Source: Candidatus Desulfaltia sp. | GTDB lineage: Bacteria > Desulfobacterota > Desulfobacteria > Desulfobacterales > ETH-SRB1 | DNA: 34,943 nt | Assembly: GCA_030656555.1 (NCBI GenBank) | Contig: JAUSPN010000107.1 | Span: forward strand, 1 to 34,943 | Direction: 5' to 3' | Part shown: piece by piece, positions 5,175 to 24,537 of the stretch | Position numbering within the stretch: the stretch's first letter is position 1 | How the letters are laid out: the number at the start of each line of letters is the position of its first letter | The notes under the pieces: generated by a model | Told to the model about the DNA's origin: nothing | Seen by the model: the letters and a program-made list of their open reading frames with translations, nothing else | Databases searched by the model: none | Position numbers and translations under genes: made by a program

Positions 5175-5301
5175 GCCCAACGACAGGGGTAACCTGCAGC
5201 AAGAATATGACAAAAAATGATAAGTGGAAATACCTTACGCGCTGCCCGATACTTCAACAACGCCGGCGTTCTTGCTGTCAGCGTTCACCCCATTGTTAGA
5301 C
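5175..5301 (-). other. attC-like integron recombination site
   Basis: Reading on the minus strand, the site starts with the heptamer GTCTAAC (5301-5295, consensus RYYYAAC) and ends with GTTGGGC (5181-5175, consensus GTTRRRY). Just inside them, 5269-5291 and 5186-5205 are imperfectly complementary. One arm carries extra unpaired bases relative to the other, as the extrahelical bases of attC do. A roughly 63-base loop contains the 12-bp palindrome AACGCCGGCGTT. The TAA stop of the upstream ATPase gene lies inside the first heptamer, the usual arrangement for integron cassettes. No integrase gene is in the window. Confidence 0.55.
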
Positions 5302-6990
5302 AATTGCATCTGCAGTTCTTGGCTTAAAATCAATATTTAATTTTTCTTTCAAGTATTGTTTTAAGACGTATACTTCGATTTTATGAGCTTTCTTTGGGTT
5401 ATCCAAAAAATATCTCGTGTAATCTGAACCATCACTCGGAGCAATAATTTGCATTTTTCGCTCCTCGCCGTTTATGTCTGACAAAATATCATAGTGCTTA
5501 ATCTCTGTTTCCCAGCAAATTAGACTGTGCAGGTTCTCAAATGAGTGGTTAAAACCTCTCTCAAGAGTCCTTTTGAATTCGATATAGAATAATTTTGAAC
5601 TAGATATTGGAGTGTTCTTGTCTCCTTTGACTATAACGTCTATGCCTTGATGTGTATCATAATCAATGACTTGAAAAGGGAACAGTTTGTCATTCAAAAT
5701 GGAAAGGTGGATAAAAATTGAATAAACCCCGCTTTCTCTTTCTGGCTCAACTAAAGTGACTCCGTTATAGGTAGCTACATTTGAACGGTTGACTTTTTTA
5801 ATTCGCCATTGGAAATTACTTCTTTCTTTCTCCGTTGTCTGATATGCTGCTGCTTCATCCTCAAGCCACTCCATTGCAGTCCAATCATCACCTTTAATAA
5901 TTTCATCATATATTTTTCGCACTTCTAAATGGATGTCCTGAAGCACTTCAGATGGCGTGTTTTCAATGGACCCACGGTTAGCTGTAAGTTTAAGGTTTTG
6001 ACAATTAAAAAAAGCATGAAATTTTGTATATTCAGACCCTTTGAAGGTTATCCATTCATTTTTTCGTTGAATAGGTATGAAATCTTTACATAGCCACAAA
6101 CCATATCTTTCTTGTATTGTATAAGATCCTGAGGGGGGAGAGTATCCTGGGCGTCTCAACATGTTGTTGTAATTATATTTTACATATTTGCCTTCTATTG
6201 CAAATATGGCCTGATAATTAATTTCTGGAAAATTTTTGAGGTGACCAGATTTTACTATTTTCTTGCAAAAATAATCTGGTGCTTTGGTTATATGAGTTTC
6301 AAAAAGTTTATTAATATCATCGCTATTTTCAGGGAAATAATGACCATTTACTAAAATTTCTTCTTTTTTAGCACCAAGACCTTTGAAAACTAATTTAACC
6401 TCTTGGCCTTGATCTTCAAATTGTCTTTCAACGGAACCATGTTTGGTGGACCAAAGAATATAATCTCTTAGGATTTCATGGGTAAATTTCTCTCTCCGGT
6501 TGTTGTTGTACCCATAAATAATGATCCTTGTTCCTGAGTTAGTGCCGTCTGCATTACTTGCAGTGACCACGACTGTGGGAATTTCTCTATTGTATAGTTT
6601 CCTGAAAGGTTCATCCATTATGGCATGATGAATAACACCTGAATTGTTTGTAATTACTTCTATTTTTTTGCTGTTAAAATAAACCTTTGTACCATGGCCC
6701 TTTTCTCCTATCGCCTCAGGATCATTTCTACGTAGTGAATTACCTAAATCGAAAAATGATTGGAGACCCTCTTGGTTCATGCCTGAACCATCGTCAATGA
6801 TGGAAATTTTCAATATGGATTCTCCATATTCTTGAACAACCTCAAATATAATTATTATCTCAGTAGCCTTTGCATCATAAGCATTGCTGATGGCCTCTCG
6901 AACCAAGTCAAGCGGATTCGAAAAATCATTTGCTATCTCAATAAATTCTTGTGTTTCATCAACTTTTGGAGTGATTACAAATGAACTCAT
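5296..6990 (-). CDS. MORC/MutL-like GHKL ATPase fused to a PD-(D/E)XK-like nuclease domain
   Basis: The 564-residue protein starts with a GHKL ATP-binding domain. The N-box is LVREAISNAYDAKATEI (E32, N36, D39), the G1 box is DDGSGM (66-71), the G2 box is GEKGHGTK (95-102), and a GT follows near 153. The middle is poorly recognisable. The C-terminal part (about 415-500) has an acidic residue E419, GID at 449-451, and a strand ending IEFKR (E471, K473), in the order of a PD-(D/E)XK nuclease. Prokaryotic MORC-like ATPases have been reported beside restriction-modification genes, which matches the neighbouring methyltransferase and endonuclease. A GGAGAGGAA ribosome site precedes the ATG. GTTAGAC lies 24 bases before the ATG and a GTCTAAC contains the stop, so the gene looks like an integron cassette. 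Confidence 0.7.
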   Translation of the reverse strand: MSSFVITPKVDETQEFIEIANDFSNPLDLVREAISNAYDAKATEIIIIFEVVQEYGESILKISIIDDGSGMNQEGLQSFFDLGNSLRRNDPEAIGEKGHGTKVYFNSKKIEVITNNSGVIHHAIMDEPFRKLYNREIPTVVVTASNADGTNSGTRIIIYGYNNNRREKFTHEILRDYILWSTKHGSVERQFEDQGQEVKLVFKGLGAKKEEILVNGHYFPENSDDINKLFETHITKAPDYFCKKIVKSGHLKNFPEINYQAIFAIEGKYVKYNYNNMLRRPGYSPPSGSYTIQERYGLWLCKDFIPIQRKNEWITFKGSEYTKFHAFFNCQNLKLTANRGSIENTPSEVLQDIHLEVRKIYDEIIKGDDWTAMEWLEDEAAAYQTTEKERSNFQWRIKKVNRSNVATYNGVTLVEPERESGVYSIFIHLSILNDKLFPFQVIDYDTHQGIDVIVKGDKNTPISSSKLFYIEFKRTLERGFNHSFENLHSLICWETEIKHYDILSDINGEERKMQIIAPSDGSDYTRYFLDNPKKAHKIEVYVLKQYLKEKLNIDFKPRTADAIV

Positions 6991-8164: not shown

Positions 8165-10018
8165 ATGCATAAATTATTAACCGACCAGCCAGGCCAAAAA
8201 ATGCTGCTCCTTGGAAATGAAGCAATTGCCCGTGGAGCAATCGAGGCGGGTGTCGCTGTTGCGACAACATATCCAGGAACGCCGTCTTCCGAAATTTCAC
8301 TTAACCTTTTCCAGATGTCCAGGGAAAGCGATCTTTATTTTGAATACAGCGTCAATGAAAAGGTTGCCCTTGAAGTAGCGGCTGCTGCCGCAAATTCCGG
8401 GATTCGCAGCATGTGCGTAATGAAGCATGTAGGAATGAATGTGGCTGCAGATGCTCTCATGACCCTTGCTTACATCGGGGTAAAAGCGGGCCTGGTTATT
8501 ATTACGGCTGATGACCCGTTCATGTTTTCAAGCCAGAACGAACAGGACAACCGTTATTATGCCGTTATTTCAGGCCTTCCGCTTCTTGAACCATCCTCGG
8601 TTGAAGAGGCCGGAAAGATGTTTGCTTTTGCATTCGATCTTTCTGAAAAGCTTTGTGAACCGGTTATATTCAGAACAACTACCAGGCTCAACCATGCTAC
8701 TGAAGCCGTGAGTCTGGGTAAAATCAAAAAAGTAAAAACAAAAGGGGATTTTAAAAAAGATCCTTTTAATTATGTTACGGTTCCTGCTGTAGCGAGAAAG
8801 CTGCACGTCAAGCTGCTTGAAAATTATAAACATGCTGAAAAGATCTCTGAAACCAGCGCTTATAATTTTATAACAGGAAAAGGAAATCTTGGCGTTATAT
8901 GCAATGGCGTAAGCTACAACTATGTATATGATGCTGCAACAGACCTGGGCATGAGAGACAGGATTAAAATACTTCGCATAGGCTTTTCACATCCAATGCC
9001 TGCAAAACTGATAAAGGATTTCTTAAAAGGATGTAAAAAGGTTCTGATTGTAGAAGAAGGCGAGCCTTATATGGAAGAAAGCGTAAAGGCTTTCGCCCAG
9101 GAGGAAGGATTAACCCTGCCCATAACTGGCAAAAGCAAGGACCTTTTTTCACGTCTTTACGAGTTTAATCCCGGTCTTGTAAGGCGATGCATAGCAAGAT
9201 ATTTTGATGTTCCATATACTTTGCCAGATACTGTCGATCTTTCCAATATCCCGGAAATTCCCCAGCGGCCGCCTAATCTTTGCGCGGGTTGCTCACACAG
9301 AGCCACATATTATGCGGTTAAAAAGGCGGCAGAGGGCTTGGAAACCATATATCCGTCAGATATCGGATGTTATACTCTTGGCTTACTTCCCCCTCTTTCC
9401 ATGGCCGATTTTCTCATCTGCATGGGATCTTCTGTCGGGACCTCCTGCGGGTTTTCAAAAGCAACAGATAAAAAGGTCATTGCCTTTATAGGGGACTCAA
9501 CCTTCTTTCACTCAGGCATACCAGGGCTGATAAACGCTGTTTTCAATAACCACAATTTTACGCTGGTCATTCTCGATAATGGCACTACTGCCATGACAGG
9601 GCATCAGCCAAATCCCGGCGTTGATATGAAAAAATTAAATCTTGAAGGGTTCGGCCATGTCTCCATTGAAAATGTTGTCAGGGGAATCGGTGTGTCCCAC
9701 GTTACAGTCATCAGACCGTACAATATTAAAAAGAGTGTTGAAGCTGTAAAAAAAGCCCTTAATTATAAAGGGGTATCGGTCGTTATATCAAAACAGATGT
9801 GCACCCTTTATGCTAAGAGCCTGAAAATGCTCAAGGCCCTGCCGTTTTATATCAGCGATAAATGCAAAAATCACAGAAATTGCGTCAATGAACTCGCATG
9901 CCCGGCTTTTTATGTCCAGGGTGAAAAGGTTAAAATCGACCCTGACATGTGTGTCGGCTGCTCAATCTGCGCTCAGATCTGCCCGGAAAACGCAATTTTA
10001 CCGTTAAAAAACAAATAG
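8165..10018 (+). CDS. iorA: Indolepyruvate:ferredoxin oxidoreductase alpha subunit
   Basis: At 617 residues this has the normal IorA length. It catalyses thiamine-diphosphate-dependent oxidation of aryl pyruvates to aryl-acetyl-CoA with reduction of ferredoxin. The N-terminal pyrimidine-binding half has TYPGTPSSEIS (35-45). The C-terminal half has the PP-binding part with NLCAGCSH (371-378), GDST (443-446) and DNGTTAMTGHQ (471-481). The tail has one standard [4Fe-4S] motif CVGCSICAQICP (596-607), preceded by an altered one, C567-x2-H570-x2-C573-x5-C579-P, in which His stands at a usual Cys position. AAGGAAA precedes the ATG. No iorB follows, so its gamma-type partner must be elsewhere or be KorC. 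Confidence 0.93.
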   Translation: MHKLLTDQPGQKMLLLGNEAIARGAIEAGVAVATTYPGTPSSEISLNLFQMSRESDLYFEYSVNEKVALEVAAAAANSGIRSMCVMKHVGMNVAADALMTLAYIGVKAGLVIITADDPFMFSSQNEQDNRYYAVISGLPLLEPSSVEEAGKMFAFAFDLSEKLCEPVIFRTTTRLNHATEAVSLGKIKKVKTKGDFKKDPFNYVTVPAVARKLHVKLLENYKHAEKISETSAYNFITGKGNLGVICNGVSYNYVYDAATDLGMRDRIKILRIGFSHPMPAKLIKDFLKGCKKVLIVEEGEPYMEESVKAFAQEEGLTLPITGKSKDLFSRLYEFNPGLVRRCIARYFDVPYTLPDTVDLSNIPEIPQRPPNLCAGCSHRATYYAVKKAAEGLETIYPSDIGCYTLGLLPPLSMADFLICMGSSVGTSCGFSKATDKKVIAFIGDSTFFHSGIPGLINAVFNNHNFTLVILDNGTTAMTGHQPNPGVDMKKLNLEGFGHVSIENVVRGIGVSHVTVIRPYNIKKSVEAVKKALNYKGVSVVISKQMCTLYAKSLKMLKALPFYISDKCKNHRNCVNELACPAFYVQGEKVKIDPDMCVGCSICAQICPENAILPLKNK

Positions 10019-10234: not shown

Positions 10235-10289
10235 TATCAAAATTTTTGATTAATAATACTAATTATTTTTTTACTTGGGGAAAGCCCAT

Positions 10290-10604
10290 ATGAAATTCTG
10301 GCGGGTTCCACTTGATGCGGACGAAATACATGTCTCTAAGGGCATAGTATATATTCTTGAAGATCGATGTAAGGGATGTGGTTACTGTATTGAATTTTGT
10401 CCACAGCAGGTTCTGGAATTTTCTTCACAGTTCAATAAAAAGGGATATCATCTTCCATCTGTCAAAAAGCCGGACGACTGTTTGAATTGCCATTACTGTG
10501 AAATAATTTGCCCTGAATTTGCGATATATTCGGTTAAGGTTACTTGTGAACCTGCTGATAATACAGAGGGTCTGGAAATAATCACGACAACACGAAAAAA
10601 TTAG
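10290..10604 (+). CDS. 2[4Fe-4S] ferredoxin subunit of 2-oxoacid:ferredoxin oxidoreductase (KorD-like)
   Basis: This 104-residue protein carries two cluster motifs, CKGCGYCIEFCP and CLNCHYCEIICP, and a short acidic N-terminus. It is the delta-type ferredoxin subunit that passes electrons out of KorABC. The frame is open from a TTG at 10275, but the ATG at 10290 has GGGGA eight bases upstream and is preferred. The gene stops 23 bases before korA and is probably co-transcribed with it. Confidence 0.85.
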   Translation: MKFWRVPLDADEIHVSKGIVYILEDRCKGCGYCIEFCPQQVLEFSSQFNKKGYHLPSVKKPDDCLNCHYCEIICPEFAIYSVKVTCEPADNTEGLEIITTTRKN

Positions 10605-10627
10605 AGAATTAAGAACTCAAAATTATA

Positions 10628-11773
10628 ATGAAACCAGCGATAAATACAGGTGAATATTTTATTACGGGTGACGTTGCCTGTGCTGAAGGGGCTCTGGCAG
10701 CAGGATGCCGTTTTTTCGGGGGATATCCCATAACTCCTGCTACTGAGATTGCCGAACATCTTTCTGTTAGACTTCCGAAAGTCGGGGGCACCTTTATACA
10801 GATGGAAGATGAAATTGCGGCCATGGCTGCTGTGCTTGGGGCTTCATGGGGCGGCGTAAAAAGCATGACAGCCACTTCCGGTCCAGGTTTCAGCCTTATG
10901 ATGGAAAACATCGGGCTGGGAATCTGTACTGAAACCCCCTGCGTAGTTGTAAATGTGCAGCGGGTCGGCCCATCCACCGGACTTCCAACTCAGGGGGCCC
11001 AAGGCGACATGATGCAGGCAAGATGGGGTTCGCATGGGCACTACGAGATTATCGCGCTCGCGCCTTTCTCTCCACAGGAGCTTTTTTATCAGACAATTCA
11101 TGCTTTTAACCTTAGCGAGACATATCGTTTGCCTGTGCTCATAATGACCGATGAAATGGTAGGGCATATGAGTGAAAAGGTGATAATTCCTGATGCAAAA
11201 AAGATTAAGACCGTATCCCGCTGCAAACCAAAAGGGAGAAAAAACCGCTTTAAACTCTATGAGCCTGGGCCAAACCTGGTTGCTCCCATGCCCGCCGCAG
11301 GAGAGGGTTATAATATACATGTGACAGGCCTTACACATGATACAAGAGGCTATCCAGACATGACGGTGGAAACTCATAAGCAGATGATGGATCGACTGAT
11401 CGGAAAAATTCGCGGTAATTTAAATGATATTATACAAACCGAAAGCTATCGTCTGGATGATGCGGAAATAGCCATTGTTTCTTACGGCATTTCTGCAAGA
11501 ACCAGCTCAGCCGCTGTTGATGAAGCCAGAAAACGGGGAATCAAGGCAGGACTTTTGCGTTTGATTACAGTATGGCCTTTCCCCGAAGACAAGATCAGGG
11601 AACTGGCCAACAGGGTAAAGGGTTTCGTGACGGTTGAAATTAATCTGGGCCAGATCCATCTGGAGGTTCAGCGATGCATTGGCGGAAAGGTGCCTGCCTT
11701 TTTAGTAGGAGATGCCGGAGGAGCGGTCATTCCCCCTGACAGGGTTCTTGAAGTGTTGAAGGAGGCGTTTTGA
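10628..11773 (+). CDS. korA: 2-oxoacid:ferredoxin oxidoreductase alpha subunit
   Basis: The protein has 381 residues, the usual KorA length. It opens with a GDVACAEGALAAGCRFFGGYPITPATEI region typical of the alpha subunit of 2-oxoglutarate/2-oxoacid ferredoxin oxidoreductases. QMEDEIAAMAAVLGASW, ATSGPGFSLM and NVQRVGPSTGLPTQ follow, then the transketolase C-terminal-like domain. Together with KorB it oxidises a 2-oxoacid to acyl-CoA; the substrate (2-oxoglutarate or a branched acid) cannot be fixed by eye. Its TGA overlaps the TTG start of korB, so the two are coupled. Confidence 0.92.
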   Translation: MKPAINTGEYFITGDVACAEGALAAGCRFFGGYPITPATEIAEHLSVRLPKVGGTFIQMEDEIAAMAAVLGASWGGVKSMTATSGPGFSLMMENIGLGICTETPCVVVNVQRVGPSTGLPTQGAQGDMMQARWGSHGHYEIIALAPFSPQELFYQTIHAFNLSETYRLPVLIMTDEMVGHMSEKVIIPDAKKIKTVSRCKPKGRKNRFKLYEPGPNLVAPMPAAGEGYNIHVTGLTHDTRGYPDMTVETHKQMMDRLIGKIRGNLNDIIQTESYRLDDAEIAIVSYGISARTSSAAVDEARKRGIKAGLLRLITVWPFPEDKIRELANRVKGFVTVEINLGQIHLEVQRCIGGKVPAFLVGDAGGAVIPPDRVLEVLKEAF

Positions 11774-12603
11774 AACCTGGTCATCCACCCGGTCATCCAT
11801 TGGAGGATTTATTGCGAACAGATCGCATTCCGTCTATCTGGTGCCCTGGATGCGGAATCGGAACGGCCTTTTCTTCCTGTTTAACAGCAATAAAAGAAAG
11901 CAAAATTGATCCAAAAAAAGTCGTGATGGTATCCGGGATCGGTTGTTCAGGACGTGCCGCCGGTTACGTCAAACTTGATTCCTTTCATACCACTCATGGA
12001 AGGGCGATCCCTTTTGCAACAGGCTTAAAGCTGGCCAGACCTGATCTTACGGTAATTGTATTCAGCGGAGACGGAGATCTTTTTGCCATAGGCGGGAATC
12101 ATTTTATTCATGCGGCGCGGCGCAATATAGATATAACCGTTGTCTGTGTGAATAATTTTAATTACGGCATGACCGGAGGCCAGGCTGCTGCAACCACCCC
12201 CAGTATGGCAAAAACCCCGACGACACCCTACGGCAACCCTGAAACTCCTTTTAATTTACCTTTAATGGCATACGCCTCAGGAGCGGTATATGTGGCCAGA
12301 TGGACTATACTCCACTCGCGTGACTTAACGGAATCAATTAACGAATCGCTTACAAAAACAGGATTTTCCTTTATCGAGGTTCTTTCTCCCTGTCCGGTTA
12401 ATTATGGACGACGCAACAAAGAAAAACCGCTCGACACATTAAAGATATATAAGGATAGAACCATAATAAAAAACAAAGCGCATCCAACACAAGTTGATCT
12501 TGACTATGAAAAGGGGATCATACTCGGTAAGTTTGTTGATGTTGATCGTCCTACATTCGGAGAGAGCTACGCAAAGATCTGCAGGCAGGATAAGCCTGAA
12601 TAG
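11770..12603 (+). CDS. korB: 2-oxoacid:ferredoxin oxidoreductase beta subunit (TPP-binding)
   Basis: The 277-residue protein carries the thiamine-diphosphate site: WCPGCGIGTAFSS near the N-terminus, SGIGCSGRAAGY, HTTHGRAIPFATG, then SGDGDLFAIGGNHFIHA followed by NNFNYGMTGGQ. The start is a TTG with GGAGG five bases upstream, overlapping the korA stop. That start codon is unusual, but no better ATG lies near. It is the catalytic partner of KorA and KorC. Confidence 0.93.
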   Translation: MKPGHPPGHPLEDLLRTDRIPSIWCPGCGIGTAFSSCLTAIKESKIDPKKVVMVSGIGCSGRAAGYVKLDSFHTTHGRAIPFATGLKLARPDLTVIVFSGDGDLFAIGGNHFIHAARRNIDITVVCVNNFNYGMTGGQAAATTPSMAKTPTTPYGNPETPFNLPLMAYASGAVYVARWTILHSRDLTESINESLTKTGFSFIEVLSPCPVNYGRRNKEKPLDTLKIYKDRTIIKNKAHPTQVDLDYEKGIILGKFVDVDRPTFGESYAKICRQDKPE

Positions 12604-12616
12604 CTAATATAAAACC

Positions 12617-13210
12617 ATGACTGCTAAACAAAAACAGAACAAGGAAATCATCATTACAGGGTTCGGTGGCCAGGGTATTATCATGGCCGGTCGTATATTA
12701 GGGAGATCTGCAGCCTTGGGAGACCGGAAAGAAAGCGTATTTACACAGTCTTATGGGCCGGAATCACGCGGAGGCGCCTGCAGCGCTCAAGTTGTAATCT
12801 CGGAAGAACCTATCCTCTACCCTTATGTAAGGCATCCTGACATCCTTATATGCATGTCTCAGGCTGGATACGAAAAATTTATCGTGCAGATGACGAATGA
12901 AACTATTTTGCTTATTGACCAGGATCTTGTGCGTCCGACTTTGAATAAATGCGATTCTTTTTCCATACCTGCCACACGCATGGCCGAGGAACTGGGGCGA
13001 AAGATGATGGCAAACATCATTATGCTCGGTTTTTGCACTGCCGTAACAAAGGTTGTCTCCCTAAATGCGGCTCTTGATAGTGTCGCGTCCTCTGTGCCAA
13101 GGGGTACGGAAGAGACAAATATCGGGGCATTTAAAAAAGGCTTTGATTATGGTCTGGCAATTCTTAAGGGGCGCGACAAGAAGGCTGTGGGCAGGACAGG
13201 AGCGGTTTAA
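12617..13210 (+). CDS. korC: 2-oxoacid:ferredoxin oxidoreductase gamma subunit
   Basis: This 197-residue gamma subunit has the family opening ITGFGGQGIIMAGRILGRSAAL and the SYGPESRGGACSAQVVIS segment. The latter is the KorC/PorG form, not the IorB form. It is bound to KorAB and completes the enzyme. Because IorB belongs to the same superfamily and none is present here, this subunit could conceivably also serve IorA; that is speculation. The stop overlaps the ATG of the next gene (TAATG). Confidence 0.92.
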   Translation: MTAKQKQNKEIIITGFGGQGIIMAGRILGRSAALGDRKESVFTQSYGPESRGGACSAQVVISEEPILYPYVRHPDILICMSQAGYEKFIVQMTNETILLIDQDLVRPTLNKCDSFSIPATRMAEELGRKMMANIIMLGFCTAVTKVVSLNAALDSVASSVPRGTEETNIGAFKKGFDYGLAILKGRDKKAVGRTGAV

Positions 13211-16200
13211 TGAAACACGCAAAAGACAGGCTTCGCAGGGTTATCGTTATAGGCGCCACACCAGCCGGAATAGCCGCTACCAACAAACTTGGCGAGCTTG
13301 GCATTCCGGTTACCCTTGTTGATTCCGATTGTGATCTTGATTTAAAACTTTCCTGTGATGAATATAAACTGAAATCAGGTGTTCCTTTCAATCATGCCCA
13401 CAGGCCCGGACTGATAAGAATTTTGAGAAATCCGGGCATTCGAACTGTTTTGCCTGTTGAAATAACCTATATAAAGCACAGCCCCCAGGGCTTTCGCTTA
13501 CGCATGAATCGATTACAAACCTTTGTGGATCAGGATCAATGCATATTATGCGGCCGCTGCGTAGATATTTGCCCGGTTTCAGATCCTGGAGAGGAAAAAG
13601 CAATCGGTTTTAACAGCAGGCGCAGCCTTCCGGGCAGCGCGGTTATCGATAAAAGACAACAACCACTTTGCAGGGAAAACTGTCCGCTTGGAGTTAATGT
13701 CCAGGGATATGTTGCTCTTGCAAAGGCAGGCAGGTTCTCGGATGCTTTGAATCTCATCAGGGAAGATAATATCCTGCCCGGGATCTGCGGACGAATTTGC
13801 ACACACCCTTGCGAGAAGGCATGCAGAAGAGGCGATATAGATGATCCGATTGCAATAAAGGATATAAAAAGATTTTTAGCAGACTATGAGCTGTTACATA
13901 AAGCAAAGACAAAACAAGGACTTGAGCCTTCCATAAAACAAAAAAAATCTGACTCAATCGCCATTATCGGTTCCGGACCCGCCGGTCTGTCTGCTGCCGC
14001 CGATCTTGCGAGGCATGGTTACCGGGTAACAATTTTTGAAAAGGAAAAGATGGCGGGCGGTCTGCTTAGATACGGAATCGGTCCTCATCGTCTTCCCAGA
14101 GACATCCTCGACATTGAAATAGCATATATTGAGAAGCTTGGGGTAAAATTCATAACATCCGCCTTAATTGATTTAGACAGCGATCTTGACGGCCTTAAAA
14201 AGGACTTTGACGCTGTTATCGTGGCCACAGGAACATGGTCTGACCGTATGCTTGGCATTCCCGGGGAAACACTTGAAGGTGTTGAAGGGTGTATATCCTT
14301 TCTTAAAAAAGTCTATTCCAACGAAATAGATGAGCTGAAAAAAAATGTAGCGGTGATCGGAGATGGAAATGCCGCATTTGACCTGGCCAGAACACTTATA
14401 CGTATTGGAGCCAAAGTCACAATATTATCATGGTTTCCCAGGAACTTAATTCCAGCAGATACGGAAGAGATAAAAACAGCGGAAGAAGAGGGTGTTGTTA
14501 TAAAGGACAGCCTTCAGGTTACCGCCTTTATAGAAAAAAACAACAGGCTGAATAAATTACGTTGCGTCCCAACCAAACCAGGGGAACCTGATAAACAAGG
14601 AATCCCCTGGCCTGTCATGATCCCGGAAAGCAAGCCTTTTGAACTTGAATTTGAGAGAGCTTTTGTTGCAACCGGTCAGGTTGGTGTATTTAAGGGTAGC
14701 AAAAGCAAAGGTGGCTGCGATATCACCGGTCGTGGCTATATCAACGTTGATAAATCGTTTAGCACAAACATCTCCAATGTATATGCGGCCGGAGATGCGG
14801 TTTCAGGTCCTTCGTCCGTAGTTCAGGCTATGGCAACCGGCAGAAAGGTTGCCTTAACGGTTCACAGAAGCCTTTCGGGTAATCAGCATGAAGGCAACAG
14901 TGTATTAAGACCCCTAAACAGAGATTTCCCGGCAATTCCGAAAGATCTTGCCGTGCTGTCACGGCCTGAGATGCCGCACATGCAAGCGGATGACCGCAGG
15001 GATAATTTTGGGGAAGTTGCATTGGGATATAGTGAATCGCAGGTTGTTTTTGAAGCCCGGCGATGTCTGCAGTGCGGCGTATGTTCCCAGTGCCTTCAGT
15101 GTGTTGACGCCTGCGGCTCAATCAACGCAGTGAATCATGGATGTCTTCCGGAAGACATTATTGAAAACGCGGGCGTTATAATTATAGCTGATCCATCTAT
15201 GGCCACCGGCATTAAAGGAGAAGATGTAATAAGAGCATATGGCCCAAAGAATGCCAAGACGGATATATACGCCATGATGCTGCGGGGCTATGCAGCAGCT
15301 GGACAGGCTATGATTCTGCTCGGTGGAAGCTCGCAACAGTTAAAAGGGTATGGTCTTTCTTTTTATCCTCCTGACCAGGGTCTTTCTTCCGATATCCGTA
15401 TTGGAATATTTGTTTGCAAATGCAATGATTCTCTTGGGTGGCTTGAAGGGATGAATGAATATATCAATGAATTAAGATCCCGTGAGGATGTTGTCCATGC
15501 TGAAGCCACAAGCTCTGCATGTATACCTGAAGGCTCGTCGGAACTTATAAGAACGATTCGCACAAAAGGTATTACGCGTATAGTTCTTGCATCCTGCGTA
15601 TGCTGCCCGTTGAATTTTGTATGCAGTGCATGCACCGACCAGAGAAGCAGACTAAAATATGCTCTATTTACAGGGACTGGGATAAGCCGGTCAATGGTCG
15701 AAGCTTGTAATTTGAGGGGAGAAGTTCTTAGACTTGTGGCAAATAATCCTTCACTGGCTTTAAGCAGGTTCAGAGGGCTGATAGATCGCTCTATTGAACG
15801 GACGAGAAGATTAAAGCCTTTGCCGGCGCTTGTTAGAAACTATAATTTCACAACTGCGGTGATCGGGGAGTCTGAACCGTCTGTGAGCAGCGCTTTTGCC
15901 CTTGCTGAAGCCGGGCTCGAGGTTTTTTTGTTTGGGACTTCTAAAAAACCGCTTAGTGAAACGCTGAACCATCCAAACATTCACAGTTTTGAGGGATCTT
16001 CGGTAAAATGGTTCAGCGGCACACTCGGAAATTTTCAGGTTTTTATAGATACGGGCGGTTTCCAGCAGGCCATACGTGTGGGCTCTGTGATACTTGGTGA
16101 AAAATCAAGGAAAAAAATTCAACATATACACCAGGAAGGATTGCCGAGCCGGATTGTTGCATCATCTTTGCAAAAAAGGGGTGTTTCCGGGATACCATTC

Positions 16201-16581
16201 TTTTATCCGGGAGTAACCTCTATTTCAGGACTTTTTCTTGCCGATCCTTCCGGCATTAATGTTTCTAAAAGACAAAAAGGGGCTGCCGCCGCAGTTCAGG
16301 CGGCGGCTATTATGCCGCGCGGACCGAGGCAGAGCAAGGGGTTTACTGTAGTAGTGGATGAAAGGTCCTGCCGTGGTTGCGGACGCTGCAATAGAGTTTG
16401 TCCTTATCACGCCATTAGCTTATACAAAAACAAAATTGATGGATGGTATGCATCGGTGGATGAAGTGCTGTGCAAGGGGTGCGGAAACTGTATCTCGGTA
16501 TGTCCGACAAATGCCGCCGACAGTCCATACAGAAACCAGGCTTATCTTGAATGGACACTTAAGGAATTAATGACTAACTAA
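13210..16581 (+). CDS. Giant multidomain flavin/Fe-S oxidoreductase (GltD-like plus HdrA-like)
   Basis: The 1123 residues run in order: a degenerate Rossmann region with GATPAG (15-20); one [4Fe-4S] motif CILCGRCVDICP (111-122); a GltD/NfnB-like module with its cysteines at 154-205, the FAD site GSGPAG (254-259), the NAD(P) site GDGNAA (384-389) and the AAGDA segment (526-530); a Cys-rich stretch (619-635); an HdrA-like part beginning IGIFVCKCND (731-740) with CVCC-x5-CSAC (796-808); and two C-terminal clusters (1054-1064, 1088-1098). It probably links NAD(P)H with ferredoxin or the Hdr proteins encoded next to it. AGGAG lies before the ATG, which overlaps the korC stop. The exact reaction is unknown. 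Confidence 0.8.
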   Translation: MKHAKDRLRRVIVIGATPAGIAATNKLGELGIPVTLVDSDCDLDLKLSCDEYKLKSGVPFNHAHRPGLIRILRNPGIRTVLPVEITYIKHSPQGFRLRMNRLQTFVDQDQCILCGRCVDICPVSDPGEEKAIGFNSRRSLPGSAVIDKRQQPLCRENCPLGVNVQGYVALAKAGRFSDALNLIREDNILPGICGRICTHPCEKACRRGDIDDPIAIKDIKRFLADYELLHKAKTKQGLEPSIKQKKSDSIAIIGSGPAGLSAAADLARHGYRVTIFEKEKMAGGLLRYGIGPHRLPRDILDIEIAYIEKLGVKFITSALIDLDSDLDGLKKDFDAVIVATGTWSDRMLGIPGETLEGVEGCISFLKKVYSNEIDELKKNVAVIGDGNAAFDLARTLIRIGAKVTILSWFPRNLIPADTEEIKTAEEEGVVIKDSLQVTAFIEKNNRLNKLRCVPTKPGEPDKQGIPWPVMIPESKPFELEFERAFVATGQVGVFKGSKSKGGCDITGRGYINVDKSFSTNISNVYAAGDAVSGPSSVVQAMATGRKVALTVHRSLSGNQHEGNSVLRPLNRDFPAIPKDLAVLSRPEMPHMQADDRRDNFGEVALGYSESQVVFEARRCLQCGVCSQCLQCVDACGSINAVNHGCLPEDIIENAGVIIIADPSMATGIKGEDVIRAYGPKNAKTDIYAMMLRGYAAAGQAMILLGGSSQQLKGYGLSFYPPDQGLSSDIRIGIFVCKCNDSLGWLEGMNEYINELRSREDVVHAEATSSACIPEGSSELIRTIRTKGITRIVLASCVCCPLNFVCSACTDQRSRLKYALFTGTGISRSMVEACNLRGEVLRLVANNPSLALSRFRGLIDRSIERTRRLKPLPALVRNYNFTTAVIGESEPSVSSAFALAEAGLEVFLFGTSKKPLSETLNHPNIHSFEGSSVKWFSGTLGNFQVFIDTGGFQQAIRVGSVILGEKSRKKIQHIHQEGLPSRIVASSLQKRGVSGIPFFYPGVTSISGLFLADPSGINVSKRQKGAAAAVQAAAIMPRGPRQSKGFTVVVDERSCRGCGRCNRVCPYHAISLYKNKIDGWYASVDEVLCKGCGNCISVCPTNAADSPYRNQAYLEWTLKELMTN

Positions 16582-16703: not shown

Positions 16704-18287
16704 ATGAATAATTATAATATCATCTTAATGCTTTGTAACTGGGGGCCTCATACCGCATTTCAGATTCTTCAGGACAAAGGGGCTGAAATACCTCCGGAGG
16801 TTAAAATGATCCGCATTCCCTGCACAGGAAGGATCAGCAAATCTCTTCTATTTAAGGCTTTTGAGATGGGAGCAGATGGAGTAGCTCTTGTAGGATGTGA
16901 GCCAGGAGCCTGCCGTTATGGAAGCGGCACCGCCGCCGCGAGGGAAAATACACAAGATATGCGGGAGATTCTTGGGCTTCTGGGATTAGGGAAAGAACGC
17001 CTGCGCCTTGCCACATTCCTGCCTGACGATTCAGAACCGCTGCTGCAATTTCTTAAAGATTTTTGCAGTGATATTCAATCTCTTGGCAAAAGCCCTTTGG
17101 CGCTGGGAAAAGCAACAAAACCAGAAGCTGAAAGCAGAGAACTTTTATCTGATATAATTTCTTCTCATGATGTATATGCTTGTCAGGACTGCGGCAAATG
17201 TTCATCAACATGTCCGCTGGCGCTTAGCGGAAAGGATTTTTCACCTCGGGCTCTAGCCGGTTCAATCATAGCCGGCGATCTGGATTCTTCTTATGTCAAG
17301 GAGGATATATGGGCATGCCTGACCTGCGGCCTTTGTTATGACAGGTGTCCATCCGGCATTAACTTCCCTGAGTTTATCAGGGATGCTCGCCAATTTTTCA
17401 AAAAAGCCGGTGTTGATGGCCGTGAGGCTCACGGAGGCTTTTTCCAGTCTTTAATGCGGGCAATGAGCTCTCCGAAGCTTAAAACAGAGCGCTGGACATG
17501 GCTTCCGGATAACATCAAGCTTGATCATAAGAGTAAAGTCCTGTTTTTTGGCGGTTGCGCTCCATTTTTTGATATATTTTTCAGACATCATCTGAGCGTT
17601 CAGACTTCTAATATTATAGTTGACAGCCTTCGTTTGTTGAATTTTTTTGATATTAAGCCGGCTCTACTCAAAGATGAGCGATGTTGCGGGCACGATCTTC
17701 TATGGTCTGGAGACCAGGAGAACTTTTTAAGGCTTGCCAGATTCAATGTTGATTTAATCCATTCTCTTGGCATTGAAGAGGTTGTTACCTCCTGCCCGGA
17801 GTGTTACCGAACATTGAAACACGACTATATAAACTATGGCCTTGAATTAAAATTCAAGGTAACGCACATTTATGATCTTCTTGAGAAAGAGATTGACAAG
17901 GGCGCGGTGAGTTTCAAAAAAATTGATAAAAGGTTGACTTTTCAGGACCCGTGCCGTTTGAGCAGGCTTGAGCAAAAAGCCGATCTGCCAAGAATGTTGA
18001 TAAAGCGTCTTAAAGGCGACCGTTTCCAGGAAATGCAGGACAGCGGAGCTGCTGCTATCTGCTGTGGCAACAGCGCATGGACCGGATGCGATTCATTCAG
18101 CAAGGCACTTCAGGTAAAACGCCTGAGACAGGCTCATGCTACGGGAAGCGATCTTCTTATAACGGCCTGCCCTAAATGCCAGATTCATCTCAAATGCGCA
18201 ATGGAGGATCCTTTTCTTGGAGATGAATTAAGCATGGAGATGATGGACTTAACGAGCCTCTTAGCAAAGACTATTTGCTGGGAATAA
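16704..18287 (+). CDS. MvhD-HdrC-HdrB fusion protein
   Basis: The 527-residue protein joins three units normally encoded separately. Residues 1-125 resemble MvhD, with CNWGP, PCTGRIS and GCEPGACRYGSG. Residues 157-225 carry two [4Fe-4S] motifs, CQDCGKCSSTCP and CLTCGLCYDRCP, as in HdrC. The rest is HdrB-like with two CCG domains: C285/CCG at 327-329/C364-x2-C367, and C417/CCG at 453-455/C489-x2-C492. Both CCG sets are complete, so a non-cubane cluster site of the heterodisulfide-reductase type is plausible. The ribosome site is weak. It most likely works with the HdrA selenoprotein encoded just downstream. Confidence 0.85.
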   Translation: MNNYNIILMLCNWGPHTAFQILQDKGAEIPPEVKMIRIPCTGRISKSLLFKAFEMGADGVALVGCEPGACRYGSGTAAARENTQDMREILGLLGLGKERLRLATFLPDDSEPLLQFLKDFCSDIQSLGKSPLALGKATKPEAESRELLSDIISSHDVYACQDCGKCSSTCPLALSGKDFSPRALAGSIIAGDLDSSYVKEDIWACLTCGLCYDRCPSGINFPEFIRDARQFFKKAGVDGREAHGGFFQSLMRAMSSPKLKTERWTWLPDNIKLDHKSKVLFFGGCAPFFDIFFRHHLSVQTSNIIVDSLRLLNFFDIKPALLKDERCCGHDLLWSGDQENFLRLARFNVDLIHSLGIEEVVTSCPECYRTLKHDYINYGLELKFKVTHIYDLLEKEIDKGAVSFKKIDKRLTFQDPCRLSRLEQKADLPRMLIKRLKGDRFQEMQDSGAAAICCGNSAWTGCDSFSKALQVKRLRQAHATGSDLLITACPKCQIHLKCAMEDPFLGDELSMEMMDLTSLLAKTICWE

Positions 18288-18316: not shown

Positions 18317-20770
18317 ATGGAAGAAAATGTTGCAGAAAATATTTCAATAAGCCCAGGTCAAGCCGTGCGTATAGGTGTTTATGTCTGCCACTGCGGTCTG
18401 AATATTTCCAGGACCATAAACTGTAGCCATGTGGCTGAAACAGCGTCAGTTCTTGATGGGGTTGTTGTTTCAAAAGACATAGCTTATGCCTGTTCCGAAC
18501 CAGGTCAGCAGGAGATCAAAGAGGACATCCTTGAACACGGATTAGACCGTATTGTTGTAGCTTCCTGTTCTCCAAGGCTTCACGAGCCCACCTTCCGCCA
18601 GATGATACAGTCTGTCGGTCTTAACCCGTTTCTTCTTGAAATGGCCAATCTGCGTGAACAGTGTAGCTGGGTTCACATGAATGAGCCTGATGCCGCGACA
18701 CAAAAGGCTGTAACCCTGGTAAAGATGGCTGTCTCTCGGGTGCGTATGCTTTGGCCTCTTGTCGGCGAAAGGGTGCCGCTGACGAAACGAGCTTTGGTGA
18801 TCGGTGGTGGAATAGCCGGAATCCAGGCGTCACTTGATCTTGCAGATAACGGTTATGAGGTAATCCTTGTTGAAAAAAGACCATCAATCGGCGGGACCAT
18901 GGCCCAGCTTGACAAGACCTTTCCCACAATGGACTGTTCCATCTGAATCCTCGGGCCGAAGATGACGGATGTCGGTCGACATCCTAAAATAAAACTTCAC
19001 ACCATGAGCGAGGTAATGGATGTTGAAGGATCTGTTGGAAACTTTAATGTAAGTATTTTAAAGCGGGCTCGTTATGTGGAGGAAAAAGATTGCACTGCCT
19101 GTGGAGATTGCGCCAAAGCATGTCCGGTAGTTCGTCCTGACGAGTTTAATGTGGGTCTTTCAACACGCAAAGCTATCTTTACCCCTTTCCCACAGGCGGT
19201 TCCCTCCGCATATGTTGTTAATATTAATGAATGTCTCGGGCATAACCCCTCTGTTTGTGCAAAATGCATGGATGCCTGCGAAAAAGGCTGCATCAATTTT
19301 CACATGTCTGATGAAGAGATTAAGGAAAGGGTTGGATCAATAGTTGTGGCTACCGGGTTGGAGCCATATGATCCGACAGAGCTTGACGAATACGGATATA
19401 CACGGTTTGAAAATGTATTAACCAGCCTTGAGTTTGAACGTCTTATAAATGCCGGAGGCCCAACCAAAGGGGAGCTGATCCGTTCAACAGACAGAAGACG
19501 TCCCAAATCCATCGGTTTTATACAGTGCGTTGGATCCCGTTCTGTCAGGAAAGGGGGCGGTTACTGTTCAAATGTCTGCTGTATGAATACAATTAAGAGT
19601 ACGCTTGTACTCAAAGAGCATTATACTGATATTACTATAAAGGTTTTCTATATTGATATCAGGGCTTTCGGAAAAGGATTCGAAGATCTTTACATGCGGA
19701 GTCGTCGATCAGGCGTCCATTATTTAAGAGGTTTGCCCGGAAACGTTGAGGAGCTTCCCAATGGAAGCCTGCGGGTTTCTGTTGAAAATACTGCATCAGG
19801 CATGCTGGAATTTCATGATTTGGATATGCTTGTACTGGCCATTGGGATCAAGCCTGCAAAAAGCGTTCAAAAGATTCGGGAGATGCTCGGTCTTCAATTG
19901 ACGCCGGATGGGTTTTTCCTGGAAGCCCATCCAAAATTGCAGCCGGTAGATGCGGCTACACGTGGGGTTTTTTATGCCGGATGCGCCGAAGGACCCAAAG
20001 ATATCAAGGAAAGTGTTACTCAGGCATCTGCGGCTACGGCGCGCTCTATACGCTTGATGCATAAAGGGGAAATTATAACCGAACCAATTACATCGGTGCT
20101 GATTCCAGGGCTGTGCAAATCGTGTGGAATATGTGCCGAGGTATGTCCTTACAATGCAATTACAGTCGATGTTAAGAAAAAAATGCCGGCTATGATTAAT
20201 TCAGCGGCATGCGCCGGATGCGGCACCTGTGCTGCAGAGTGTCCTTTTGGCGCCATCACAATGAACCATTTTACTGATGACCAGATTATATGTCAGATCG
20301 ATGCCATGCTCGAAGACAAAGCTCAAGAAAAGGTGCTGGTTTTTGCCTGTAACTGGTGCTCTTATGCCGGAGCAGACTACGCTGGGGTCTCGCGTATTCA
20401 ATATCCTGCCAGCGTGAATATAATACGCACCATGTGTTCAGGTCGTGTGGATAAAAACTTCATCTGGCATGCTTTCCTTAAAGGAGCGCCGGTTGTGCTT
20501 GTAAGTGGCTGCCATATAGGTGATTGTCACTATATTGATGCGAATCATTGGACCCAAAAAAGGGTTCAAAAGCTGCAAAAGAAGATGGAAAAGCTGGGCA
20601 TTAAACCAAATCGGCTTCAGCTTGAATGGATTAGCGCTGCAGAAGGTGTTCGATTTGCCGATGTAATGAATAAAATGGAAAAGATCAGACAAGAGGTTTC
20701 AAGTCAGGAAATTGCAGATACAATCAAGATTTTGAGCCGCAGAAAAAAACAGGTTCTCTTAAGTGATTGA
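18317..20770 (+). CDS. hdrA: HdrA-MvhD fusion, selenocysteine-containing
   Basis: I join two frames separated by one in-frame TGA (18944-18946), giving 817 residues with Sec at 210. The context MDCSI-U-ILGPKM matches the HdrA stretch DCSxCILTPKM, so the TGA stands exactly where HdrA has cysteine. N-terminal part: IGVYVCHCG (19-27) and the FAD site GGGIAG (163-168). After Sec: CTACGDCAKACP (259-270), two ferredoxin motifs (from about 600 and 632) and a C-terminal MvhD domain with CNWCSYAGADYAG from about residue 678. HdrA is the flavin subunit of heterodisulfide reductase complexes and the site of electron bifurcation. AAGG lies before the ATG. A frameshift-free split gene is the alternative, less likely given the hairpin after the TGA. 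Confidence 0.88.
18947..18984 (+). promoter_or_regulatory. Bacterial SECIS-like hairpin after the Sec codon
   Basis: A perfect 7-bp stem GGATGTC/GACATCC (18967-18973 and 18978-18984) closes a GGTC tetraloop, placing GGU in the apical loop 27 bases after the UGA. Bacterial SECIS elements sit inside the coding frame just downstream of UGA with a G-rich apical loop, so position and loop both fit. SelB binding is inferred. Confidence 0.7.
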
Positions 20771-21256: not shown

Positions 21257-22252
21257 TTAAAATGGTCGAACAAGTCCAAGCAGGGTGTTTTGAAACTGAG
21301 ACTCTTCTTTTGATGCAGAATGGTTATATCCAAAGCAACCGGCAAAAAATTCATGCGGCGTTTGGCCGGGCACAACAGCAAGGGTTAGAGAAACCTTTGT
21401 ATCACTATTTTTAGCAAAACACGGACAAGCAATTTTGTCGGTCGATGTTAGCCAGGGATTTCTTGCTATAATTTCAAGCTGTTTAATGAAGTCGTCGCGC
21501 CATTTATCCGCCTTCTCAAAACTGTTTTTTTGTAAGGGTATTGAGTCAAAACTAACTATAATCTCGGTCCGAGATGCTTTATCAATTAAATACTCAAATG
21601 CCGAGGAGCTGTTTGTAATAAACAGGCCTGATTCCTGCGGATCGTGTTGCATAAGAAGAGCCCATGCTTTTATCCTGTCGGCTGTCATGTAAGCGCCCGG
21701 ATCGTAGGATTCAAGCAGACTGTTTTCAGCATTTTCAACAAATGAACTGTCAATTTCTCCCTTAATATTTTTAATGATATCTTGCTGCATCTTATCAACC
21801 ATAAAAAGCTTTTGATTTATTTCCCAATTTTGAGCGTCAAATTCCTGGGCAATGGCTAAAAATATCCTTGCGTTAAAAAGAGGGTCGGGCTTTACTTCAG
21901 GTTGCTTTTGCTGTGTGTTTTTTCTTATATCCGCCTTGATTTGCGCGGTAAAGGTATCATCAAAAAAGGGTATCTTATCTGCGTGTGTCTTGAAAAACGA
22001 GGTCATGCCTCGTTTATCACCCAGATGGAGATTTAACCATGATTTATACTCTTTTAACATCGCATCAAGTTTGTTTTCATCCTTTTTTACCGGTATTCGT
22101 ATATCAATAGCCTCTGTTTTTGCCAATTCCTGCATAATTTCAGGAAGATTTTTACTTGAGGGGCGATATACAACAGGCTGCCCAAAAATTGCCGAAATCA
22201 TTTCAGCAGATACATCAAAAATACAGGTAAATGGGAAATATATAGGTTTCAT
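21257..22252 (-). CDS. Unknown 331-residue protein coupled to the CysK-CysRS gene
   Basis: I do not recognise a family. The protein has no signal peptide, no clear membrane helix and no cofactor motif. It is largely helical and charged in the middle (KDENKLDAMLKEYKSWLNLHL, then DKMQQDIIKNIKGEI). A Cys-containing stretch CPCFAKN lies toward the end, followed by a hydrophobic strand LTLAVVPGQTPHEFFAGCFGYNH. The ATG overlaps the stop of the upstream cysteine synthase/CysRS fusion (ATGA), so it is the third gene of a tmk-cysKS-unknown operon. That coupling is the only hint to its role. Confidence 0.8.
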   Translation of the reverse strand: MKPIYFPFTCIFDVSAEMISAIFGQPVVYRPSSKNLPEIMQELAKTEAIDIRIPVKKDENKLDAMLKEYKSWLNLHLGDKRGMTSFFKTHADKIPFFDDTFTAQIKADIRKNTQQKQPEVKPDPLFNARIFLAIAQEFDAQNWEINQKLFMVDKMQQDIIKNIKGEIDSSFVENAENSLLESYDPGAYMTADRIKAWALLMQHDPQESGLFITNSSSAFEYLIDKASRTEIIVSFDSIPLQKNSFEKADKWRDDFIKQLEIIARNPWLTSTDKIACPCFAKNSDTKVSLTLAVVPGQTPHEFFAGCFGYNHSASKEESQFQNTLLGLVRPF

Positions 22253-24537
22253 TTTTTTTCAGTCGCTCTCTCGTCTTTTATGGTTATTCCACGAACTGTC
22301 AGTTGATCACGAATCTTGTCGGCAAGAGCCCAATCTTTTTCCATCCTGGCCTTATCTCGTTGTTTAATCAGGCGTTGAATTTCAGGATCGGAAATATTGT
22401 CTCTAAGGTCGAATATTTTCAGCACCGAATCTATATTTCGAAAAGCATCCACAACCCGCAGGGCGCCAATCGGATCAATCATTTTCTTTAGTACAAGGAT
22501 GTTTATCTGTTTGAGAATTTTAAAAATAGAGGCCATTGCCACTGAAATATTCAGGTCATCATCCATGGCTTCGGTAAAACCGTGCTTGATATTGTATAGA
22601 AGCTGATCCAGTTCAGGATATGGAGCGCCCTCTTTTATGTTGAGCAGGGCATGCACGCATGAATCAAGCCTTTTCAGAGAATGTTTGGCGCTGTCAAACC
22701 TGTCAACGGACAAGATTACAGGTTTTCTATAATGACTTGCAATAAGCCAATATCTGATAACCCTTCCAGAATAGCCTTTAGCGTTTAAATCCGCAAGTGT
22801 GATGCCGGCCTTATTTTCATCCATTTTTTTGCCGTCAACCAATACCCTGTCGCAATGCATCCAGTATTTTGCCATGGGGTTTCCGGTAACAGCTCCGGCT
22901 ATTGCCATTTCATTTTCATGATGCGGAAATACAAGCTCTCTGCTGCTTGTATGGATATCAAAACTTTCCCCAAGGTATTTCATGGATATGGCCGCGCATT
23001 GAAGATGCCATGAGGGACGAACATTGCCCCAGCCTGTTTTTACATATATTCCTCTTTTCAGCTCCGAAAGCTTGGACCTTTTCAGGAGCGTGAAATCTCT
23101 GGGGTTGTCCTTTTCATATTCATCGAGATCTACAGTGGCTCCAAGTTTTATCTTGTCTATATTTATACCCGACAGCCTGCCGTAATCGGAAAAACGGGAA
23201 ATATCAAAGTATATGGAATGAAGTTTTTCATATGCAAAGCCTTTGTTGACAAGTTTTTCAGCCAATGCAACCATATCTTCGACATGCTCGCTTGCCCTGG
23301 GATATTTATCGGCAGGCTTTATGTTTAAGGTCTTTAGATCCGTCATAAAGGACTCGATATGTTTGCCGGTAAATTCAGAAAGGCTAAGACCTGCCTTTTC
23401 AGAACCATGTATGGTCTTATCATCCATGTCCGTAATATTCATGATGTGTGTTACGGAGTAGTTTCTGTATTCAAGATACCGGCACAACAGGTCGGCAAAA
23501 ACAAGACGCCGGCATTCTCCCATGCCTATCCTGGCATTTGCCGTAGGGCCGCAGGAATATATCCCAACCTTTCCGGCAACAATCGGCTTAAAAGGCTCCT
23601 TGCTTTTGCTCATGGTGTTGAACAGTCTCAACTTAGCCATGTCTCGTGCATCGAAAAGGGATGTGCTCAGGTATCGCTCCCCTCCATCCGGAAATATTAC
23701 TACAATCGTGCCCTCAGCCATAGTTTTGGCTTCTTTGCGGGCAATAACCATGGCCGCGCCGCTGCTCATACCTGCAAAGATTCCTTCCTCCTTTGCAAGA
23801 CGTCTCGTCATTTCAAAGGCTTCTTCGTCGTCGATATTTACTTTTTTGTCTAATAGTTTTTTATCGAATATTTCCGGACGATAAGCCTCCTTCATATTCT
23901 TTAATCCCTGGATTTTATGATTAAGGTACGGCTCGACGCCGACTATGCAGATATCGGGATTATATTCCTTCAGTCTTTTTGAAAGGCCCATAACGGTTCC
24001 TGTGGTGCCCATTGTAGCAACAACCATTGTAACCTTTCCCGTAGTCTGCTCCCAGATTTCTTCTGCAGTACCATAGTAGTGGGCTTGCCAGTTGGCCGGA
24101 TTATTAAACTGATCCGTCATAAAATAGATTTCCGGATTTTCGCGAGCCAGGCGATAGGCCTCCTCTATAGCGCCGTCCGTGCCAAGATGGCTTGGGGTAA
24201 GCAAAATGTCTGCGCCGCGAGCCTTCAGTATCTTCTGCCGTTCAACACTTGCCGATTCAGACATGGTCAGCAGGAGTTTATATCCTTTGATAGAGCATAC
24301 CAGGGCAAGTCCGATACCGGTATTTCCACTTGTTGCCTCTATAACGGTCTTGTCCGTGGTGAGCTCGCCCGATTTTTCCCCGGCTTTAATCATGAAAATG
24401 GCGGCCCTGTCCTTGATTGAACCTCCGGGATTAAGATATTCGAGCTTTGCCAGGATTTTTACCTTAGGATTTGGATTGAGCTTTTTTATTTCAACAAGTG
24501 GTGTGTTCCCTATGGTATCTAATATTGAATAGTTCAT
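22249..24537 (-). CDS. Cysteine synthase-cysteinyl-tRNA synthetase fusion
   Basis: Residues 1-300 are an O-acetylserine sulfhydrylase: NTPL, the PLP lysine K42 in GGSIKDR, TSGNTG (69-74) and MGTTGT (176-181). Residues from about 310 are a class I cysteinyl-tRNA synthetase with the zinc ligands of that family: C329 in YSCGPT, C514 in WHLQC, and HHENE (539-543). The HIGH site reads RIGM (336-339) and the KMSKS site reads KMDEN (571-575), so both ATP-handling signatures deviate. The fused enzyme could make cysteine and charge it in one protein, or the synthetase half could have another amino-acid ligation role. It starts 13 bases after tmk. Confidence 0.88.
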   Translation of the reverse strand: MNYSILDTIGNTPLVEIKKLNPNPKVKILAKLEYLNPGGSIKDRAAIFMIKAGEKSGELTTDKTVIEATSGNTGIGLALVCSIKGYKLLLTMSESASVERQKILKARGADILLTPSHLGTDGAIEEAYRLARENPEIYFMTDQFNNPANWQAHYYGTAEEIWEQTTGKVTMVVATMGTTGTVMGLSKRLKEYNPDICIVGVEPYLNHKIQGLKNMKEAYRPEIFDKKLLDKKVNIDDEEAFEMTRRLAKEEGIFAGMSSGAAMVIARKEAKTMAEGTIVVIFPDGGERYLSTSLFDARDMAKLRLFNTMSKSKEPFKPIVAGKVGIYSCGPTANARIGMGECRRLVFADLLCRYLEYRNYSVTHIMNITDMDDKTIHGSEKAGLSLSEFTGKHIESFMTDLKTLNIKPADKYPRASEHVEDMVALAEKLVNKGFAYEKLHSIYFDISRFSDYGRLSGINIDKIKLGATVDLDEYEKDNPRDFTLLKRSKLSELKRGIYVKTGWGNVRPSWHLQCAAISMKYLGESFDIHTSSRELVFPHHENEMAIAGAVTGNPMAKYWMHCDRVLVDGKKMDENKAGITLADLNAKGYSGRVIRYWLIASHYRKPVILSVDRFDSAKHSLKRLDSCVHALLNIKEGAPYPELDQLLYNIKHGFTEAMDDDLNISVAMASIFKILKQINILVLKKMIDPIGALRVVDAFRNIDSVLKIFDLRDNISDPEIQRLIKQRDKARMEKDWALADKIRDQLTVRGITIKDERATEKK

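Follow-up and report, generated by a model that had tools for sequence, protein, structure and literature searches.

An HdrA-MvhD fusion gene of Candidatus Desulfaltia with a UGA codon that is very probably read as selenocysteine, in a genome that also carries a selC*-selB* cassette

Selenocysteine (Sec) forms of HdrA are a bacterial selenoprotein family that has been known since at least 2006, going by the available portion of PMC1794560 (Zhang et al. 2006), which reports 16 HdrA selenoproteins, 7 of them in Syntrophobacter fumaroxidans, and also refers to fusions that involve the hdrA gene. Sec-HdrA is also included in the accessible part of a 2026 review (PMC13188914). In HdrA2, the MvhD protein is fused to HdrA, and homologues of HdrA2 occur in Bacteria, as stated in the available text of PMC6019823. 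The gene described here is less surprising than it was first rated, since Sec-HdrA is a long-known family, and it is well supported that it adds one member to it. Similarly to the deltaproteobacterial hdrA genes in the portion of PMC1794560 at hand, it has a UGA that would encode Sec; however, the operon presented there is glpC-hdrA-frhD-frhG-frhA, whereas here hdrA lies beside kor and nfn-like genes. The product has the same domain order as HdrA2 of Methanosarcina (NF040770) and scores above the curated cut-off of that family, and it is for the product described here that a Sec codon, at residue 210, is noted.

The window, which is the whole stretch of 34,943 nucleotides that was analysed, carries hdrA on the forward strand at 18317..20770, as a frame of 817 amino acids that is interrupted, apart from its terminal TGA, only by the TGA at 18944..18946 (residue 210). 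An earlier note on this DNA had proposed that two adjacent frames are a single HdrA, that the reading frame runs on unchanged past the TGA, and that automated annotation would report two pieces. All of this is borne out: ORF calling yields 18317-18946 (209 aa) and 18962-20770 (602 aa), the frame stays open to the terminal TGA, and the read-through product matches the NCBIfam model of HdrA2 (NF040770) at residues 18-798 with 1198.4 bits against a cut-off of 1100. Among PDB entries it matches HdrA (5odc, 775.2 bits) and MvhD (136.5 bits), and the MvhD/FlpD domain of the fusion occupies residues 673-790 (20333..20686, forward strand; Pfam PF02662, 163.2 bits). The alignment to 5odc is ungapped around residue 210, which corresponds to the second Cys of the DCSICIL motif of that HdrA, and the Sec would lie C-terminal to the GGGIAG motif of the flavoprotein domain, at a distance of 41 residues. 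The TGA therefore sits at an HdrA cysteine, as had been claimed; the motif, on the other hand, had been given as DCSxCILTPKM and actually reads DCSI-U-ILGPKM. When the window was scanned for TGA codons flanked on each side by 70 or more open codons, six came up, and the five besides that of hdrA lie opposite longer ORFs on the other strand. We consider it very probable, to the point of near certainty, that 18317-20770 is a single HdrA2-type HdrA-MvhD fusion gene whose UGA codon 210 is read as selenocysteine.

That the TGA is a real stop, so that the locus would be a pseudogene or would consist of two separately translated halves, the second starting at the ATG at 18962, is very improbable. Automatic ORF calls do give two pieces and this ATG follows the TGA by only 15 nt, but the split would cut through the flavoprotein domain (Pyr_redox_2, residues 159-569), and 72 of 89 distinct coding sequences (CDS) from several phyla share both the TGA and the continuing frame, with the protein conserved on both sides. 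These CDS derive from a wider set of 96 loci, comprising the own locus, 15 relatives and 80 loci from named genomes (the best 80 of 278 relatives), of which 95 passed an orthologue filter that asked for 55% identity or more across 400 or more residues (L253 is without an orthologue), and in which 6 duplicate pairs were merged. The codon at the position of residue 210 is TGA in 72, TGT in 13 and TGC in 4 of the 89, proportions that are no census of Sec and Cys since the named loci were taken from the best 80 of 278 relatives. The earlier note had suggested comparing residue 210 with HdrA homologues, and Cys is indeed found there, in the 5odc HdrA and in 17 of the 89 CDS.

A sequencing or assembly error that turned TGT or TGC into TGA deserves almost no credence, even though the genome is a draft (2.73 Mb in 107 contigs, completeness 100), because the assemblies of many other genomes have a TGA with a downstream hairpin at the same place. 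In a sample of 58 genomes, a full-length HdrA match with at least 59% identity is present in 16, each with one TGA, at the residue-210 codon, which together with the 72 of 89 CDS makes such an error unlikely. In the genome G005 the TGA-hdrA is divided between two matches, which brings the TGA-hdrA genomes of this sample to 17; a more distant full-length HdrA match (46%) in G044 has TGC. Record titles and their NCBI ranks place the Sec form in Thermodesulfobacteriota, in Chloroflexota, in an Aminicenantes bin and in bins titled only bacterium or Deltaproteobacteria, and the 17 Cys forms belong to Bacteroidota (5), Chloroflexota (7), Thermoplasmata bins (2) and Thermodesulfobacteriota (3). The closest relatives among the best 80 of 278 are from Desulfobacterales metagenome-assembled genomes, with 94 and 92% identity; Desulfobacteraceae bacterium Eth-SRB1 is one of the nearest named relatives, and its hdrA (L041 and L176) is identical to that of G007, a genome from the family to which the own genome belongs. 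The cultured Desulfoferrobacter suflitae DRH4 (L204) likewise has the TGA form. With 72 Sec forms and 17 Cys forms, the set of CDS offers a natural comparison of the two residues at a single position in what is presumed to be a bifurcating flavoenzyme. As a separate observation, many of the relatives have a second HdrA paralogue whose open frame spans roughly 1010 aa or more and contains an in-frame TGA, which in L063, L066 and L067 falls in the same motif; the paralogue of the own genome (contig C101) has TGT.

For the bacterial SECIS, the accessible part of PMC13188914 gives a model with an apical loop of 3-9 nt, an upper stem of 4-16 bp, a G at one or both of the first two loop positions, 16-37 nt between the UGA and the apical loop, and a minimum free energy of at most -7.5 kcal/mol. 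The 7-bp hairpin with a GGU apical loop that the earlier note had placed 27 bases past the TGA is present at 18967..18984 on the forward strand (GGATGTC-GGTC-GACATCC). Its stem begins 20 nt past the UGA, its GGUC loop occupies 18974-18977 and is separated from the UGA by 27 nt (18947-18973), and the isolated hairpin folds with -9.4 kcal/mol, so that its 4-nt loop, 7-bp stem, loop sequence, spacing and energy all lie within the limits of that model in PMC13188914, as far as the source is available. Only 1 of 200 shuffles folds as well as the isolated hairpin and none of 200 matches a 28-nt piece; wider contexts of 42, 57 and 81 nt at the UGA fold no better than shuffles (z -1.15 for 57 nt), and Rfam returned nothing relevant over the window at gathering score, nor permissively around the UGA. 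Because the 57-nt context is unexceptional, the hairpin in one sequence is no proof of a SECIS; the proof comes from its conservation.

Among the 89 distinct CDS, a hairpin in which 6 or all 7 of the 7 pairs form and whose loop begins with GGU or GGG is found in 72 of the 72 TGA genes and in none of the 17 Cys genes. The loop condition matters here, since 6 of 7 pairs also form in 3 of the 17 Cys genes once the loop is ignored, and it was chosen after the TGA rows had been seen. One Cys gene, L219, with a GGAC loop and at least 6 pairs, may hold a decayed SECIS. Furthermore, the Cys genes L219, L220 and L221 encode CILGPKMTDVGRHPN, which equals the peptide of the window except for Sec/Cys and the last residue, with other codons and without a GGU loop, and therefore the protein sequence does not force the RNA hairpin. 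Covariation is seen at pair 29-36, which is T-A in 41, C-G in 22 and T-G in 9 of the 72 TGA CDS and never C-A; on a tree of 86 rows, a quick one with SH-aLRT support only, this pair changes at least 18 (TA), 12 (CG) and 8 (TG) times and the Cys state at least 4 times. In a smaller set of 17 TGA rows, the same pair is UA in 9, CG in 7 and UG in 1, the hairpin cells are paired in 97.5% as opposed to at most 57.1% for slid versions, and in 3 rows the outermost pair does not form. In addition, the synonymous difference rate of 16 orthologues averages 0.554 (sd 0.086) over 813 windows of 7 codons, and the five lowest windows of hdrA (0.127-0.224) start 4 to 8 codons past the UGA. The SECIS proposed at this place thus both fits the published bacterial model and is conserved with covariation.

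The own genome (G000) encodes the complete machinery for Sec, with tRNA-Sec (selC) on contig C75 (75.9 bits, anticodon tca), SelB on contig C95 (380.2 bits), SelA on contig C38 (619.8 bits) and SelD on contig C31 (387.2 bits, cut-off 125). The earlier note had staked the Sec reading on finding selA, selB, selC and selD elsewhere in the genome, and with all four of them present the reading survives. SelA would form Sec on the tRNA-Sec, using selenophosphate supplied by SelD, and SelB would bind the mRNA hairpin at 18967-18984 and deliver the charged tRNA to the UGA; from this known bacterial pathway we infer that Sec is actually inserted at codon 210. SelB is over its cut-off in 16 of the 17 TGA-hdrA genomes of the 58-genome sample, and its absence from G047 possibly reflects an assembly gap. 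The selD gene itself (L017:12049-13101) is broken by an in-frame TGA at residue 18 (SGUASK), and for this reason SelD is probably a selenoprotein as well; the context downstream of this TGA folds no better than shuffles. Thirteen tRNA-Sec matches of the own genome were considered as possible extra Sec tRNAs; of the 8 best, which were examined, 2 are tRNA-Sec and ARAGORN reads the other six as three Ser, one Leu, one Trp and one Tyr. Short SelB matches close to the termini of contigs C2, C19 and C91 resemble the beginning of EF-Tu, judging from their position and score.

Upstream of hdrA and on the same strand lie, in order, iorA, a korD-like ferredoxin gene, korA, korB, korC, an NfnB/GltD-like gene and an HdrD-like gene. 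The run starts with iorA (8165..10018), the alpha subunit of indolepyruvate ferredoxin oxidoreductase (TIGR03336, 781.9 bits, cut-off 650.9), which is followed by 2-oxoacid:ferredoxin oxidoreductase genes (10275..13210). Within the latter, korA is over its cut-off, korB and korC have best matches below theirs, and the ferredoxin (10275-10604), which has no profile match, is called korD-like from its sequence only. The next gene (13210..16581) specifies an NfnB/GltD-like pyridine nucleotide oxidoreductase with a C-terminal ferredoxin part and without an NCBIfam match over the cut-off. The immediate neighbour (16704..18287) encodes an HdrD/GlpC-like probable partner subunit that combines FlpD, ferredoxin and two CCG domains (Pfam FlpD 109.2 bits, CCG 81.2 bits), again with no NCBIfam match over its cut-off. 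Curated NCBIfam cut-offs are reached upstream of hdrA by iorA and korA only, the others having matches below the cut-off or to Pfam only. With a single tblastn match at E 1e-15 that covers half of the protein or more as the criterion, the HdrD-like neighbour is present in 65, the NfnB-like in 46 and korC in 48 of the 80 named-genome loci (the best 80 of 278), many of which are truncated where the contig or the 6-kb flank ends and most of which end before korA/korB. In distant loci the identity of the neighbours falls to 26%, and the NfnB-like match of L221 lies elsewhere.

From this gene order, the hdrA product would be the FAD/Fe-S subunit of a complex of HdrA-MvhD, HdrD-like and NfnB-like proteins, encoded beside 2-oxoacid:ferredoxin oxidoreductases. 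Family membership and gene order together indicate that the complex is probably electron-bifurcating or confurcating, and that it would be a soluble assembly in which NAD(P)H, the HdrA flavin, ferredoxin and the CCG subunit exchange electrons with 2-oxoacid oxidation. Sec at residue 210 occupies the Cys position of other HdrA, and the notion that it may tune the bifurcating centre, like bifurcation itself, is extrapolated from the HdrABC literature as presented in the available parts of PMC5861303 and PMC6019823, where this residue is not described. Annotation of such genes as two fragments would conceal a probable energy-conservation subunit, both in Desulfobacterales and in some genomes of Chloroflexota.

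The same genome harbours a second, putative set of UGA-decoding genes. A selC* tRNA-Cys that works with a second SelB, SelB*, was reportedly described by Mukai et al. in 2017 and Vargas-Rodriguez et al. in 2018. Such a pair is already in print for Desulfobacterales, with features that recur in the own cassette, as far as the available portions of PMC7609411 and PMC9437257 go, and in the latter aminoacylated SelC* inserts Cys at Sec UGA codons, a function posited for selenium scarcity. A literature search for a second or paired selB in one genome found unrelated papers only. The own cassette (L017:4036-6081 on contig C31) consists of selC* at 4036-4127 and the second selB at 4159-6081, whose product scores 303 bits and is 30% identical to SelB1. 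Its tRNA scores 52.5 bits as tRNA-Sec, with a tca anticodon, an 8-bp acceptor stem (AGGGGCAA/TTGCCCCT), an A1:U72 pair and a U73 that precedes CCA. The opal tRNA with UCA, U73 and A1:U72 and the selB directly downstream agree with the described system. The described tRNA has a modified 8/4 structure with an unpaired A in the T-stem, of which the 8-bp acceptor is seen here. By contrast, the described Desulfobacterales have a CysRS* without anticodon domain downstream of selB*, which was not found here, and the own cassette has fdhA/fdhB-like genes on its upstream side and, on its downstream side, a run that includes yedF, yedE and selD. At a site where FdhA often has Sec, the FdhA beside selC*-selB* is of the Cys type (TGC) in three motif-matched loci (L017:34-3000, L126 and L127).

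In the 58-genome sample selB* is present in 9 genomes (G000, G002, G007, G011, G014, G026, G029, G032 and G033), all of which also have SelB1, and in each of the 9 loci a tRNA precedes selB* at a distance of no more than about 0.5 kb. The most divergent SelB*, that of G029, is 36% identical to the own SelB*. This patchy occurrence suggests horizontal spread or repeated loss. In G007 (L127:5373-8343 on its contig C40) the cassette is tandem, with two selC* copies and a second selB* that is an open frame of 177 aa. A tRNA-Sec-like tRNA with a gca (Cys) anticodon at L134:7719-7810 (G021, contig C128) resembles a selC*-type tRNA-Cys with a normal anticodon. In Switch II, the SelB* proteins of G000 and G002 and the full-length one of G007 (L010/L017, L126, L127) have the motif DVPGQ, as opposed to DVPGH in the other SelB* and in all SelB1 rows compared; the histidine of DVPGH is, we assume, the GTPase histidine as in EF-Tu, and it is glutamine in these SelB*.

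Owing to this cassette, it is not quite certain that the hdrA codon is read as Sec and only Sec, and Cys insertion at the UGA by selC* and SelB* is possible. A tentative reading, which we hold to be rather unlikely, is that the codon is decoded in two ways, as Sec by SelB and tRNA-Sec when selenium is available and as Cys by SelB* and the selC* tRNA-Cys(UCA) when it is scarce. The genome has the selC* tRNA (UCA, 8-bp acceptor, A1:U72, U73) directly before the second SelB, SelB* retains the last winged helix (SelB-wing_3, 44.9 bits), 6 of the 9 selB* genomes of the sample also carry TGA-hdrA, and the posited role of SelC* under selenium scarcity in the accessible text of PMC9437257 would fit such an exchange. 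Nevertheless, no selB* is visible in 11 of the 17 TGA-hdrA genomes (one of them, G031, has a partial tRNA match at a contig end), so hdrA does not need selB* and the canonical pathway suffices. Moreover, SelB* gave no match to SelB-wing_2 at E 1e-5 and, together with its 30% identity to SelB1 and its DVPGQ motif, this makes its activity and SECIS specificity uncertain. In the same doubtful scenario the UGA would be ambiguous, with SelB/tRNA-Sec and SelB*/selC* competing for the hairpin and the form of HdrA that is made, Sec or Cys, depending on the selenium supply. If it were true, competition at the hairpin would switch the properties of an energy-conserving flavoprotein with selenium supply. 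The co-occurrence of hdrA and selC*-selB* in one genome provides a concrete target gene for the question of two-way UGA reading. Decoding as Sec is still the preferred reading of codon 210.

A further point against two-way decoding is that an anticodon-domain-less CysRS* was not found among the ORFs of C31:1-16000. Genome-wide, two CysRS are over the cut-off, a canonical one on contig C104 and one inside the window, where a cysteine synthase is fused to a CysRS-like domain (22249-24537, reverse strand). The fusion still matches DALR_2 and CysS_C, its KMSKS is not intact, and this pentapeptide is intact in 0 of 17 aligned fusions, an alignment from which L166 and L270-L272 were dropped by the length/motif filter and L273 was left out. 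The comparison of sites covered KMSKS, since the HIGH and Zn-Cys patterns gave no match in the reference row of this alignment. As the charging enzyme of selC* the fusion was considered and is a weakened candidate, given that a second CysRS occurs in 49 of 58 genomes as against 9 of 58 for selB*, and given the KMSKS result. A title search turned up no paper title that names a cysteine synthase-CysRS fusion. The 49 genomes are those in which a further CysRS match, of low score, falls in an open frame no shorter than 718 aa, the fusion itself being confirmed only in the aligned rows, and in G000, G001, G003 and G005 this second CysRS lies close to hdrA on the same contig.
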